Origin: Candidatus Vallotia laricis
Lineage (GTDB): Bacteria > Pseudomonadota > Gammaproteobacteria > Burkholderiales > Burkholderiaceae
NCBI RefSeq assembly: GCF_020541325.1
Contig: NZ_CP047399.1
Coordinates: forward strand, 620,001-684,000
Length of the DNA: 64,000 nt
Direction: 5' to 3'
This document shows positions 682 to 11,169 of this stretch, in pieces. The stretch's first letter is position 1; every line of letters starts with the position of its first letter. Below the pieces are notes generated by a model. It was not told the origin of the DNA and searched no databases. It was given only the letters and a program-made list of their open reading frames with translations. Position numbers and translations under genes: made by a program.

Positions 682-907
682 GATCCCGCGTGTGTATGTC
701 ATAAAAAGGGGCAACGCGCTCGTACGCTTGCAGTAGCCGCCCAGAAACCTTGCACTACAGCTTATCGAATTGCTCGGGTTATGGACATTAGGTAAAAATG
801 CGATCTAAAATTACTCAGGATCTAGCTAGTTAAATCCGGTGCGCTAATCCGGTGCGCTAAATTAGCAAAAACTCGCTCTTGCAGCAGCAGTTCTAGAATA
901 ATCTTAG

Positions 908-1652
908 CTATCGCACACTAGATAGATGGCTAGATCTATTCACAGAAACATGTATAAGGTCGCTTTCCATGAAAGACGGTAGTGGGTATATATGGTAAAA
1001 TGCGCTACCTCGGCGTATATAAGCCCCGTCGCAGATAATAATCTTATCGCAGATCTTATCGAAGAATACGGTTAGCTGGTACTGATATGCAAGCTTGAGT
1101 ATCAGTACCGCATTGGTCAGATTATGAAAGTTAGCAATCGCTGAGACTCGCATATTGAGCAAAATCTTCGCTTTAATACCGTCTGAATCTAACAGACGAC
1201 TACTATATTTGCCCCACCAGTAGCAGTTTTCTTCTACTAATAGACTAACTAGTTCTGCCAATAATAGGTCACTAAACCGTAGTAATGGCACTTTATCGTT
1301 ATCATTTAGCGGGCCTTGCATCGTTATCACTATTAACTCCGACGCGTTATTGCTAGTAAAAAATAGTTAACACCAACAATGTTTTTTGTTGCCCGTGATA
1401 CACAATAGATTTATACGCTGAAAACATAGACTTTGAGTCCGAAAAAAACTAGATGATGCCGGTAGGTTTCTAACTATATCAGTGGCACCCTCGTCTAGCG
1501 TATCGAAGACGAGAGCGTCAACATTACCAATGTTTGGCTTAATGACTTTGATACCCTTTTTCTTGAAAGCGTTTAACCTTATTTCAAAGAGATCTGTATA
1601 TGCCATAACAGATATTTAATAGCTTATTTAATTTTATGATGGACTTCTTCAT
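908..1652 (-). pseudogene. alaT: Decayed alanine/aspartate-type aminotransferase (AlaT-like)
   Basis: This is a ruined PLP-dependent class I aminotransferase. The probable original start is the ATG at 1652 (MKKSIIKLNKLLNICYG, like the family N-terminus with NKLLNVCYDIRG). After a frame change it continues from 1606 down to 1367 with IKVIKPNIGNVDALVFD and DIVRNLPASS (family: IKLNIGN, FDAPDE, RNLP). A further break leads to 1330-908, with LLNDNDKVPLL, DGIKAKI and DKICDKIIICDGA (family: LLNDGDEVLLP, DDIRAKI, DEVYDKIVYDG). At least two frameshifts are needed and the Lys-containing C-terminal half is not recognisable. Its place directly upstream of hom matches Burkholderia order. Inference: the transaminase producing alanine was lost recently enough to be read by eye. 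Confidence 0.85.
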
Positions 1653-1950
1653 ATCCAATGCCTTGGTAAAGAAAAGCTCGCTTACGATAAAAAAAGCGAC
1701 TATTCGCCGGATAGCGACCGATACAAAGGCCGCTCGCGTGATCTAACAGGCTTAAGGACACTAAAGAGTAATCTAGCGGATTTTAGCGTAGTCACACAAT
1801 GCATCAAACTATTCCCTTATCCGGTAAACCGCATAGCGGAATGCATTGAGCTCGGGCTGGTCGTTTCCATTATCTCATAACTCGAACTGATCGTCTCGTT
1901 TGCCACACGTGGTAAGCACCCATAAATATCAAACATATATAGACATTACA

Positions 1951-2340
1951 TTGAAATTACACCTAGATTCTACTGGTAGTATGAATACTGTCACTGGTTA
2001 TGGCGCTAACTATGTTGAGGTTAATCGACAACGCTACGATTACAGCATTTTAATATTCCCGCATCAGCCGGTTGTGCCGTGGCCGGTGTTTTCGTTTGAT
2101 ACGCTGATGCCAGAGAATTTTGACATGCTAGTTGCGTTTGCTGGCGAATCTAAGATTGAAGTCGTAATTTTTGGAACTGGAGCACGGCAACGCTTTGCGC
2201 ATCCACGAATAACTAATGTACTGACACGCCAGTGTATTGGTATCGAGACAATGAGTTTTCAGGCTGCGTGTCGTACCTATAATATCCTTATGTCAGAGAG
2301 ACGCAAAGTCGTACTCGCGATTCTAATCGAAAAAATATAA
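1951..2340 (+). CDS. Mth938-like (DUF498) domain protein
   Basis: Small protein of the Mth938/NDUFAF3-like family; bacterial members are uncharacterised, and the eukaryotic relative NDUFAF3 helps assemble complex I. The TTG at 1951 gives KLHLDSTGSMNTVTGYG right at the N-terminus as in Burkholderia homologues, and the product is 129 residues, close to family length. ATGs exist upstream at 1900 and downstream at 1981, but the former adds 17 unconserved residues and the latter removes the conserved LHLDSTG. Family hallmarks seen are the VVIFGTGARQRF-type segment (residues 68-78 region) and the C-terminal QAACRTYNILMSERRKV. It is intact although it sits between two pseudogenes. No biochemical role can be assigned. 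Confidence 0.8.
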   Translation: MKLHLDSTGSMNTVTGYGANYVEVNRQRYDYSILIFPHQPVVPWPVFSFDTLMPENFDMLVAFAGESKIEVVIFGTGARQRFAHPRITNVLTRQCIGIETMSFQAACRTYNILMSERRKVVLAILIEKI

Positions 2341-2956
2341 ATATAGCTAATATATGTCAGATCTTTAGTCATTTTTTGATATGTAATAAACATGCGCACC
2401 TGCACATGCCATACTCTGAAATCTACTAAAAATAGATAATTGATAGGAATGTTTTTCCCTAATACGGCTGATATTCTATTGCTGGGTTACACGTAGACTA
2501 CGTATACTTAATTATTGTCAGTACTAATAACCAGCTAGCTACTGCCAGATGCTTATGAGGGTAATTGCGTGCGATTCGCAAAGCGTTATTATAGCTAAAC
2601 TTCAACCGTAAATCGGGCTTTGGCGCATGAATTCAATTTCTGCTACGTATATTTTTCTAGAAAAATCTAATATATATAAGCATATAGTTGCCGCTTAAAA
2701 TTAGTATGGATTCGGTTAATTATTCTAATTTTTTAAATTTTTAATGTCAAAATTATATCTATTAATCGCAGTAGCTTACCATTAATAGCTTTTATGCTAT
2801 GCAATAAGCGTTATTCTTTAGATCAATTAATGCTCATTCTATGACGCTATTTCGGGCTTGAAGTTTTGCTGCTATTGGTAGCAATATGCTCGGCGTAGCT
2901 ATTCTGTTGCAGAAAAAGATTTTCTCCTATTAAGAGAACTGAATGAGATAAAATAT
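2341..2956. other. Non-coding, AT-rich gap
   Basis: About 0.6 kb with frequent stops in all frames. I see no gene, RNA or convincing regulatory site; it is presumably decayed DNA of the same block as the broken aminotransferase that follows. Confidence 0.6.
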
Positions 2957-3531
2957 GAGCACAATCCCCTTGCCTTTTTTGCCGTTCGTTCGACTTATGT
3001 TAATGAGGAAACAATGTCCGGCGTCGTTGATGTTCTATGCAGTGGTTAGATTACTACCGGCCCGCAAAATGCTCGTTTTGAAGCGGCGCTCTCTTAGTGC
3101 TATGGCTGGTCAGTGCGAACTTTTAATTTTAAGGTACCCGCCGCACGATAGCCATCGCATTGTGTATCGCCAGTATTAGACCCAGCGACGAAGTAATAAC
3201 TACACCGTATCTAAGTAGCTGCTAGCAATATGATCTACGAGGTTGGTGCAACCCCAGTATTCGCTGAATTAGCTTTATACGCTCGCTTACACGTAATAAA
3301 AATATTATAGCAATTGAGGGTGGTGCGCTTATAATAAATAACGATAATAAAGCACAGCTCGCTTAAAAGTACCGGCTTCATGGTATAACGCGAACTGATT
3401 TTGACGGAATGGAATACGATCTACGTAGAGGTAAGTACAATTTAACTGATGTTGCTGCACAAGTCGGGTTGGGATCGCTCGCTCGCTTAAATGAAATTAC
3501 AGAGTTCTATACTAGAAGTACTTTGCTATGA
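2957..3531 (+). pseudogene. Decayed DegT/DnrJ/EryC1/StrS aminotransferase (ArnB-like)
   Basis: One plus-strand frame reads, across several stops, EETMSGVVDVLCSG, ITTGPQNARFEAALS and VRTFN, the N-terminal signature of sugar aminotransferases such as ArnB (family: SGWITTGPKN). Shifted frames then give DEVITTP and EVGATPVFAE (family: GDEVITP, GATPVFVDI). After a deletion of roughly 100 codons that includes the PLP-lysine region, the frame shows IEGGALIINND, YRLHGITRTDFDG and GKYNLTDVAAQVGLG (family: AEGG, KYNLTDI). Known: ArnB makes UDP-4-amino-4-deoxy-L-arabinose for lipid A modification and polymyxin resistance. Assignment to the family is firm; assignment to ArnB rather than another sugar aminotransferase is inference. 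Stops lie for example after CSG, and a TAA at 3364-3366. Confidence 0.8.
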
Positions 3532-4341
3532 GATATTAATTGAAAGTGCAGTTTAAAATTAAATTACTGCTCAGTAAAGAGACTAATGCTTTAGTCTATT
3601 CTACTAAGTAGATTCGAAGAGCGTTTCTAGCCAGCGCATATAAAACTAAGGTAGTACTAGATAAAATATATCCTAAAATCTTTAAATTTTAGAGGAAATT
3701 ATAAATATAATATATAAGTTAGAGCAGAATATTACCGCCGTAATCAAACAGATAGTTAATATGAGTAATATTAACTATCTGCACCTCTAGTTATAAGTTA
3801 TATAGTAGACCTAAGTAGTAATGCACGCTTTAAAGAAGTAATAATTATAAGAAAAAATGAGATAAAATTAGGTAATACGTGTTAGACTGACTCAGTACTA
3901 TAAGAGATATATTTGATAATATCTCACTTGTATTTTTAATAAAAACGGTATTTACTACTAGTAGTCAATATATAAATCTATAGATGATTAGGTTTTTGAA
4001 AAAAATGGAATAATAAATCTAAGTGTCTTTAATCGCTGCAAGTATTTGAATAAGAGCAATACAATAATATATATATGTGTATCGTACATTTTCCTGTTCT
4101 AGTTAAAAATAAATTTTTTATAAAACATGCAAGTGGAAAAGCTTGCGATTAAGAAATTAATTTATTCGTAATTTAAAGCCACTAAATATATTTAGTATAT
4201 TAATACTATTCCATACTAAGAAAGTAACATCTAAGATAACGGAAAATATAATGCCAAACATTTATATGCTGTCAGTCTACTAAAGATGGATGTGTATCCA
4301 TTATGGAAATGTAACATTGCGTGCAAGCACAAAAAATGCAC
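3532..4341. other. Non-coding, AT-rich gap
   Basis: About 0.8 kb of stop-rich sequence downstream of the broken aminotransferase and convergent with pit. I see no gene. It may hold further unreadable remains of the same cluster. Confidence 0.55.
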
Positions 4342-5352
4342 TTATAGCAACTTCTTCCCTAGCCACCATCCGGCAGCAGAAAGTGCGGCGGATGCTGGAA
4401 TTGTCAGAATCCAAGCCCATATAATATTGCTAGCGACACCCCAACGCACAGCTGAAAGTTTCTTCGTCGCTCCAACCCCAACGATCGCACCAGTAATTGT
4501 ATGCGTCGTCGAAACTGGAATTCCTAACCATGACGCTATAAATAATATAATTGCACCACCAATTTCTGCGCAAAATCCACTAACCGGTTTGAGCCGCGTA
4601 ATGCGCTGCCCCATTGTGCGCACAATTCGCCAACCACCAAATAATGTTCCTAACCCCATTGACATATAGCAGCCAACGATTATCCATGTCGGCGGAGCAG
4701 AATCGGCAAGAGATGATGCTCCCGTTGCTATTAACAGCATCCAAATAATACCAATTGTCTTTTGTGCATCGTTACCTCCGTGTCCCAGGCTATATAGAGA
4801 CGCAGACACAAGTTGTAACCTTCGAAAATAACAATCAACACGACTTGGCCGCATCCGGAAGCAAATCCAAGAGACCAGAAGCATAAAAAGCGACCCGAAT
4901 ACAAAACTAAGTAAGGGCGATAAAAAAATGCAAGAGATTGTCTTCGTCAATCCGCTTATATTCAAAGCGCCCCACCCTGACTTAGCAATTGCCGAGCCAA
5001 CTAGGCCTCCAATTATGGCATGCGAGGAACTTGATGGAATCCCGTAATACCAAGTTACGATGTTCCAGCCAATGGCCCCAAATAAAGCGCCGAATACTAC
5101 GTAGTGATCGATAATACTAGGGTCGATCGTGCCCTTACCAACTGCAGTCGCTACTTTTAAATGAAATATAAAATATGCAATGATATTAAAACTAGCGGCG
5201 AATACTACGGCCTGATACGGCTTAAGTACTCCTGTCGACACGACAGTCGCGATTGAGTTTGCTGCGTCATGGAAACCATTCATGAAATCGAATATCAACG
5301 CTACAGAAACTAGTAGCGTAATTACCCATATAGCAAGTTGAATCGAATGCAT
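4342..5352 (-). CDS. pit: Inorganic phosphate transporter, Pit family
   Basis: Low-affinity inner-membrane phosphate (metal-phosphate)/H+ symporter. 336 residues, the usual length of the short betaproteobacterial Pit proteins. The two duplicated family signatures are visible: NGFHDAANS near residues 25-33 and HGGNDAQKTIG near 191-201, each followed by a small-residue segment containing PSSSSHA (about 107-112) or PVSTTHT in the second half. Many hydrophobic segments alternate along the chain. It lies 12 bases downstream of a DUF47 gene in the same direction, a common pair in which the DUF47 protein modulates Pit. It ends next to decayed DNA. No defect seen. Confidence 0.93.
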   Translation of the reverse strand: MHSIQLAIWVITLLVSVALIFDFMNGFHDAANSIATVVSTGVLKPYQAVVFAASFNIIAYFIFHLKVATAVGKGTIDPSIIDHYVVFGALFGAIGWNIVTWYYGIPSSSSHAIIGGLVGSAIAKSGWGALNISGLTKTISCIFLSPLLSFVFGSLFMLLVSWICFRMRPSRVDCYFRRLQLVSASLYSLGHGGNDAQKTIGIIWMLLIATGASSLADSAPPTWIIVGCYMSMGLGTLFGGWRIVRTMGQRITRLKPVSGFCAEIGGAIILFIASWLGIPVSTTHTITGAIVGVGATKKLSAVRWGVASNIIWAWILTIPASAALSAAGWWLGKKLL

Positions 5353-10140: not shown

Positions 10141-11169
10141 TTAATACTGATCAAATAGGCTTTGTAATATCAATGGCTCGCTCCAACCGCGCGAGAGTGC
10201 AAGCATCAATAGTACACGCGCTTTATATGGATTTAGCGTGCCAGCGCTAACTAGACCTAGCATGTCATCTGGTGCAGCACCATTACGCATTACATGCCCA
10301 GACCCAACACGAGAGGAACGCACTACCGCAACGCTGCGTGCTCGCGCACTAACCAGTGCTTGCTGCAACGTTGAATGAATAGAACCATTTCCAGTTCCAG
10401 CGACAACGATTCCACGTACGCCTGCATCAACTAGCGCATCAACAATTACACGAACCGCACCAGCATGACTAACAACAATCTGGACCATAGGTAGCGGATT
10501 CTGTGTATCTATATCATTCAGCCTAAATACTGATTTAATCGTATGAGCGCGCGTTACACGTCGCTGAAATTCAATCCGTCTGTCCTGGACCCAGCCCAAT
10601 ACACCACTTTCGGGTGACGCGAATGCGTCAACCGCATAGGTACTCACTTTCGTGATATCGCGTGCGCCATGAATCCGGTTTGCGAAGGCAACTAGCACGC
10701 CACGTGCTACTGCATCCGGACACGCAGCAAGTGTCACCGCATCGAGAAGATTCAGTGAGCCATCAGACGATAATGCGGTAAATGGTCGCATTGCCGCAGT
10801 TAGTACAACCGGTTTGACGCTCGCAACGGTTAAGTGCAACCAATATGCAGTTTCCTCAAGAGTATCAGTGCCATGCATAATTACGAGTCCGTCAATATCA
10901 TCCTGCGCCAGCAATACATTGACTCGGTGCGCTAATGTAACCCATAGTGAGTCGTCAAGATCTTTACTATCGATTCCCGCAATTTGCTCAGAACGAATCG
11001 CTGCAACGCTATCTAATTCTGGTACAGCGGAGAGTAGTCGGTCTACGCTGATTACGCCAGCCTTATAGCCGCTAGTCTGAGCTGCGACTGGCGCTTCTCC
11101 TGCAATTGTTCCACCGGTCGCTAATACTGCAACTGTAGGCCGCTTCTGATGTGACACAGCTGCGCTCAT
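10141..11169 (-). CDS. Asparaginase (type II-like L-asparaginase/glutaminase family)
   Basis: Hydrolyses asparagine to aspartate and ammonia. 342 residues, normal for the family. First catalytic motif LATGGTIAG with the nucleophile Thr near residue 21, second motif [12 protein letters not shown] at 99-110 containing the T-D pair and, further on, the conserved Lys in VVLTAAMRP. The C-terminal part has HAGAVR and [11 protein letters not shown]. No signal peptide is obvious, so a cytoplasmic enzyme is likely. The ATG overlaps the stop of the upstream ABC-F gene (ATGA), implying coupled translation. The C-terminus is intact. Confidence 0.9.

Follow-up and report, generated by a model that had tools for sequence, protein, structure and literature searches.

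A broken arnB among the relics of lipopolysaccharide genes in the adelgid symbiont Candidatus Vallotia laricis

What does a shattered sugar aminotransferase gene tell about the outer membrane of an insect symbiont? In Burkholderia cenocepacia, both viability and the export of lipopolysaccharide (LPS) are reported to depend on the L-Ara4N that LPS carries, and mutants in arnT stay alive when lptG is changed (PMC5377068). A sequence-only reading of the DNA analysed here had proposed that a broken ArnB-like gene marks a lost L-Ara4N modification of lipid A and therefore a changed LPS. The question is whether this symbiont carries an altered LPS or has no LPS left to alter. The window is the whole 64,000-nucleotide stretch analysed, bases 620001-684000 of contig 1 of Candidatus Vallotia laricis (G000; 1.13 Mb, two contigs). 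This bacterium belongs to the Vallotia group of adelgid symbionts, placed in Mycetohabitans in GTDB. We compared it with seven congeners: three with genomes reduced to about 1.2 Mb (G002, G003 or V. tarda, and G005 or V. cooleyia) and four with genomes of 3.3-3.8 Mb.

All the peptides on which the proposal was built were found in plus frames, in the order given and together with stops. ITTGPQNARFEAAL, EVGATPVFAE and SG share one plus frame, DEVITTP, IEGGALII and KYNLTDVAAQVGLG lie in a second one, and stops occur in every frame. With the intact ArnB of G002 as the tblastn query, the region was matched at window 2955-2993 (13 residues), 2969-3271 (43% identity, E 5.3e-16) and 3283-3501 (77% identity, E 3.6e-29, one stop). 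The DegT/DnrJ/EryC1/StrS family profile PF01041 matched the 3' part of the relic above its cut-off (E 1.7e-9). The 5' half contains stops and a frame change, a deletion lies near 3271-3295, and the match is broken off after about 3500. The proposed central deletion was borne out by the DNA match to G002, where the alignment breaks off at L024:9979 and starts again at 10216 while the window moves just from 3271 to 3295; about one-fifth of arnB was deleted mid-gene. The final third of the gene is also missing, as the match to the G002 gene stops at window 3500. This missing end, like the arnT tail listed in Table 1, goes beyond what had been noticed from the letters alone.

The surroundings of the relic are those of a dismantled operon. 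In all seven congeners, the same site holds arnT-arnB-arnC-arnA(formyltransferase)-arnA(decarboxylase)-arnD, and the aligned parts of these six genes have no in-frame stops except two in the arnC tail of V. tarda. We considered this arnC as possibly damaged and rejected the idea because its stops fall in the C-terminal tail; the gene was counted as intact. The left boundary of the site in V. laricis is an open frame with 73% identity over 128 aa to a G002 protein (gene L024:6996-7385), and the right boundary is a transporter gene that adjoins arnD in G002. The sole NCBIfam match of the G002 transporter at E<=1e-20 was PitA, with 128.9 bits under a cut-off of 800 bits. Between these boundaries, the arnT remnant matched the end of G002 arnT by blastn with 77.6% identity over 67 bp (E 5e-7), a score reached in none of 200 block shuffles; the remainder of arnT was not detectable in the stretch around the site. 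At the position of an ArnF-like flippase gene, the flippase of G004 gave no tblastn match to the V. laricis stretch at E<=1, and the longest open run listed for window 2600-2990 has 36 residues. Downstream of the relic, the counterpart of the AT-rich segment in G002, from arnC to arnD, measures about 3.9 kb. No remnant was detectable in 3501-4341, where 148 of 200 block shuffles scored at least as well as the best match. Only the arnT tail and the broken arnB survive at the arn site, and, judged by this gene content, L-Ara4N synthesis is lost in V. laricis.

Table 1. Features at the arn site of V. laricis (window coordinates) and intact flippase genes of congeners (locus coordinates).
Feature	Coordinates	Strand	Evidence or property
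Small ORF, intact, left boundary of the arn site	1900-2340	+	146-aa open frame
arnT 3' remnant (last codons; lipid IVA L-Ara4N transferase)	2554-2620	+	blastn to G002
Decayed spacer at the position of the ArnF-like flippase gene	2621-2954	+	no significant remnant
arnB pseudogene (UDP-L-Ara4N aminotransferase)	2955-3531	+	tblastn, PF01041, peptides in frames
AT-rich decayed DNA replacing arnC, both arnA halves and arnD	3532-4341	+	26.4% GC, 0.8 kb
Phosphate transporter gene (PiT type), intact, right boundary	4342-5352	-	336-aa ORF, DNA alignment
Intact ArnF-like flippase gene	L026:9062-9430; L027:10468-10836		

Could the relic be a different sugar aminotransferase of the DegT family? The two fragments by themselves do not separate the models, since ArnB fits the first better and PseC the second. 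The intact G002 orthologue (L024:9664-10812, between arnT and arnC) reached 317.4 bits on the NCBIfam ArnB equivalog model, below the cut-off of 631 bits. However, ArnC, ArnT and ArnD of the same G002 operon also fall under their NCBIfam cut-offs, and both ArnA halves are above theirs (NF005414, NF008872), so these cut-offs look tuned to other taxa. ArnD of G002 had no Pfam match at E 1e-5; otherwise the arn proteins of G002 match their expected families. At full length, the orthologue scored 355.6 bits on PF01041 and was matched better by the ArnB model NF008658 (E 9.4e-95) than by PseC, which came second (E 1.5e-88). Its top solved chain, by far the best, was 4lc3_A, a putative UDP-4-amino-4-deoxy-L-arabinose--oxoglutarate aminotransferase (E 5.1e-190), and the next three chains in the PDB are likewise named ArnB or its enzyme. 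With an orthologue between arnT and arnC at this site in every one of the seven congeners, we rejected a PseC-type aminotransferase and attach next to no probability to any other DegT-family identity. The relic is, by its homology and operon context, arnB, and the broken DegT/DnrJ gene had been named correctly.

An intact arnB elsewhere in the genome would have told against a lost modification. A search of the whole V. laricis genome with the PF01041 profile and an ArnB piece found no second arnB. The sole other PF01041 match (C1:463644-464003, E 6.5e-7, above the cut-off) falls in an intact 423-aa IscS-type cysteine desulfurase gene (742 bits, cut-off 548), which the ArnB piece as query did not recover. 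Queries with ArnC, ArnA and ArnD, genes whose fate the sequence-only reading had also wished to know, gave in V. laricis just two weak matches of about 30% identity to the formyltransferase part; in G002, V. tarda and V. cooleyia, the same queries gave full matches beside similar weak ones. With the operon gone from its site and no second arnB found, the suggested loss of the L-Ara4N modification of lipid A holds. Viral contigs searched with an N-terminal ArnB piece contained no relative, and a plasmid search returned five records from Cupriavidus and Variovorax with 45-49% identity.

The loss does not stop at the arn operon. Profile searches of the same eight genomes, V. laricis and its seven congeners, found no LptF, LptG, LptC, WaaA or KdoO (Kdo hydroxylase) in V. 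laricis, and each of these proteins in all seven congeners, KdoO being broken in V. cooleyia. LpxC is a remnant with nine stops, and intact in seven of seven congeners; LptD is a fragment, with frames of 785-893 aa in all seven; and LpxK is broken, being present in all seven, as two overlapping frames in G004. BamA, an Omp85 protein used as control, is intact in all eight genomes. A site-by-site comparison of contig 1 with G002, with stops counted per aligned piece, located the relics between intact neighbours. In the lpx cluster beside bamA, the best aligned piece has 11 stops for lpxB and seven for lpxA, and lpxD remains as three pieces with stops, yet fabZ, which lies between lpxA and lpxD, is whole, with 88% identity to G002. 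Between ftsZ and secA, lpxC has 11 stops in one aligned piece. The adjacent lpxK and kdsB have 12 stops each in their best piece, gmhB (heptose phosphatase) and galE six each, and lptD, beside an intact surA, is in three pieces with five, eight and four stops. At their site, lptF and lptG are fragments. Where the kdsD-lptC-lptA-lptB block occupies 6.0 kb between its neighbours in G002, V. laricis has 0.8 kb without a match, and for waaC-kdoO-waaA 5.3 kb corresponds to 0.4 kb without a match. The state of kdsB, kdsD, lptA, lptB, gmhB, galE and waaC refers to G000 against G002 at the expected sites. The open frames near lpxC in V. laricis are presumably mur and fts genes, the name of ftsZ having been confirmed; a damaged murG was considered and rejected, because its stop lies only in the C-terminal tail and the gene counts as intact. 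Loss also reached a gene outside the LPS pathway, as nothing in the V. laricis stretch matches rnhB, the neighbour of lpxB in G002.

The committed lipid A steps are thus lost with the breakage of lpxA, lpxB, lpxC, lpxD and lpxK, and Kdo transfer and LPS export with the absence of waaA and lptC and the breakage of lptD, lptF, lptG and kdsB. Because the tested lipid A, Kdo, inner-core and Lpt genes are broken or absent, most likely no LPS is left to modify, and, on the genes tested, the V. laricis lineage very probably makes no LPS. Of the proposed consequence of arnB loss, the missing modification stands, and an altered LPS does not.

When did this happen? A tree was built from three flanking proteins, four more flanking genes having been dropped as missing from some stretches. 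It separates V. laricis, G002 and V. tarda from V. cooleyia and the four large genomes with a support of 100, and joins V. laricis with G002 with a support of 67. G002, V. tarda and V. cooleyia keep the tested LPS genes, apart from the kdoO broken in V. cooleyia; since these three reduced relatives keep them, the loss falls on the V. laricis branch. The relics, their sites, the intact copies in the sisters and this branch are read directly from the genomes. As a measure of decay, we counted V. laricis changes at first and second codon positions that are the same in all five orthologues compared (four in the case of the transporter), within alignable parts, which for arnB amount to about half of the gene. 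By this count, 32 of 293 sites were changed in arnB (0.109), 244 of 1800 in lpxA-D (0.136), 264 of 1536 in lptD/F/G (0.172) and 77 of 1838 in the functional genes (transporter, fabZ and bamA). The decay of arnB exceeds that of the functional genes (p 1e-5), so arnB was clearly released from selection. It does not differ from that of lpxA-D (p 0.23), which indicates that the arnB relic is not older than the lpx relics, and over the alignable parts it looks younger than the lptD/F/G relics (p 0.007). The changes have a GC-to-AT bias, but this was set aside as a sign of decay because the functional genes show the same bias.

The relatives that keep the operon appear to need it. Between G002 and either V. 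tarda or V. cooleyia, dN/dS was 0.06-0.15 for arn genes and 0.05-0.21 for the other genes compared, rough values given the high dS (0.7-2.5); lpxA, lpxB and lpxD as well as arnT, B, C, A, A and D of G002 and V. tarda are under purifying selection. Residue D31 of LptG is kept in all five genomes checked (G002, G003, G004, G005 and G007). Purifying selection together with D31 fits a continuing need for L-Ara4N in these relatives. According to NCBIfam, the short gene that separates arnT from arnB is ArnF-like (E 2.6e-18; 66.6 bits, below the cut-off of 99). Five of the seven congeners (G001, G004, G005, G006 and G007) carry it intact; in G002 (L024:9276-9524) and V. tarda (L025:9017-9151) it is broken. 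With the flippase gene broken and the arn enzymes kept, these enzymes persist in the two relatives without a flippase gene at its site, which suggests a second flippase or a tolerance of flippase loss.

We consider it highly likely that the broken arnB is the residue of an otherwise deleted arnT-B-C-A-A-D operon and one of many relics of an abandonment of LPS. Within the host, selection for an outer leaflet with LPS would have ceased, and the genes for lipid A, Kdo, the inner core, Lpt export and L-Ara4N might then all have decayed. L-Ara4N synthesis could have been lost as its acceptor and exporter were also going, rather than via an LptG by-pass. Genes with other jobs would have stayed under selection, such as fabZ for fatty acids, bamA and surA for outer membrane proteins, and the division and wall genes near lpxC. 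We infer that the cells have no LPS and that selection relaxed by life in the host was the cause. A loss that began with L-Ara4N is also conceivable: if LptG exports only L-Ara4N-bearing LPS, export would then have broken down and the remaining pathway genes would have decayed in turn. Such a sequence would follow from the dependence known in B. cenocepacia, and the larger deletions of the arn operon than of lpxA-D, as well as the flippase gene already broken in the two nearest relatives, point the same way. Yet the decay of arnB is not above that of lpxA-D and is below that of lptD/F/G, and the two flippase-less relatives keep all six arn genes and lpxA, B and D under purifying selection, which makes this order rather improbable.

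Two further readings have far less in their favour than this order. If only the L-Ara4N modification had been lost, a changed LptG could export unmodified LPS, as LptG D31H accompanies the survival of B. cenocepacia that lacks arnT (PMC5377068), and the arn operon is indeed gone from its site. But at their site lptF and lptG lie in fragments, profiles did not find them, and LpxC, WaaA, LptC and LptD are broken or missing. A change in LptG that permits L-Ara4N loss, which had been suggested as worth seeking, finds no place in V. laricis, where lptG itself is destroyed; with D31 unchanged in five relatives, we rejected the LptG suppressor route. A lone loss of ArnB was rejected as well, the tested LPS genes being broken or absent too. 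If the assembly is right, LPS production through an altered LptG is accordingly very hard to credit. Only one assembly is available, so an assembly or sequencing error might be suspected; scattered substitutions at conserved codon positions, more frequent in arnB than in functional genes, along with deletions, spread-out stops and the same picture at eight separate LPS loci whose neighbours are intact, make such an error extremely improbable. Preferring a joint abandonment of LPS and its modification, we can also imagine, tentatively and with no great expectation of being right, how dependence on L-Ara4N might have been escaped in Vallotia. The flippase could have been lost in the common ancestor of V. 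laricis, G002 and V. tarda, leaving a supply of L-Ara4N that was inefficient or needed another flippase; V. laricis would then have discarded LPS, exporter and modification together, while its sisters keep LPS and modification. If so, the linked requirement of L-Ara4N and LptG itself would have shaped the path to an outer membrane free of LPS.

LPS loss in reduced symbionts is already known, and V. laricis is a further, fresh case with close relatives that keep LPS genes. B. cenocepacia has the same biosynthetic genes, and the LptG residue D31 is kept in the Vallotia relatives; V. laricis differs in that it escaped by the removal of LPS and LptG and not by a point change in LptG (PMC5377068). 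The closest parallel is the loss of lipid A in symbionts of stink bugs, the Edessa clade (PMC8032781). As described there, lpxC was likewise lost between ftsZ and secA, and lpxD and lpxB were lost with the neighbouring fabZ kept; peptidoglycan genes are retained in that clade, and those near lpxC are open in V. laricis. The Edessa symbionts are extracellular and keep rnhB beside lpxB, whereas the V. laricis stretch has no rnhB match. V. laricis also differs in belonging to Burkholderiaceae, in relics that are still readable and in having lost the arn operon too. The same report states that every one of its genomes above 1 Mb keeps the lipid IVA pathway and that smaller ones, with exceptions, have lost it (PMC8032781); V. 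laricis has 1.13 Mb. For V. tarda, an adelgid symbiont with syntenic loci and a similar genome size, most genes for lipid A, core and Lpt are described as kept (PMC8692619), and it has the tested LPS genes as published, whereas V. laricis has lost them. Of 20 kb of the second V. laricis contig, 55% matches the V. tarda plasmid at 78%. Wolbachia is described as Gram-negative without Kdo2-lipid A genes (PMC3087551) and shares the host-bound end state without a lipid A pathway, which in V. laricis is read from the genes tested. In Wolbachia, the loss is placed in the ancestor of the whole family (PMC3087551), whereas in V. laricis it concerns one branch within a genus, with most relics in place. 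In the literature searched, taken without supplementary files, a loss of LPS in Vallotia is nowhere reported; the one paper there that names both Vallotia and lipopolysaccharide describes retention in V. tarda (PMC8692619). PMC8857208, which treats V. cooleyia and V. lariciata, nowhere uses the terms lipopolysaccharide, lipid A, LPS, outer membrane or cell envelope in its main text, and lipopolysaccharide and lipid A are unmentioned in PMC12696581.

The value of this group of symbionts lies in sisters with and without LPS genes at nearly equal genome size, the dead genes still being in place. They allow one to ask how an outer membrane looks when LPS goes but BamA and SurA stay, and how relatives of bacteria with L-Ara4N-dependent LPS export lose that requirement. 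Across 41 genomes, V. laricis and 40 relatives, LpxC was broken in V. laricis and missing in four: G010, G012 and G020, of 0.2-0.5 Mb, and G039, of 3.7 Mb. G039, from the same order and listed as 100% complete, matched neither LpxC nor a 75-residue ArnB piece, and this large-genome relative may lack lipid A. For Nitrosomonas europaea, PMC3087551 reports lpxK as the only gene detected.

Several smaller observations concern the relatives. V. cooleyia, in which KdoO is broken at G005:C1:919578-920109, still has waaA, the arn genes, lpxA-D, lpxK, lptC, lptD, lptF and lptG. In the 3.8 Mb genome of G004, the two overlapping frames of lpxK (C2:498377-499307) reflect a frameshift, either genuine or introduced during assembly. 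No match to kdsC was found in G002 between kdsD and lptC (L206:9423-9673), where E. coli K-12 has kdsC. Lastly, window 715-1567 on the minus strand holds the remains of another aminotransferase, related to a 410-aa gene that is intact in G004 (L027:13439-14671) and also broken in G002, V. tarda and V. cooleyia.
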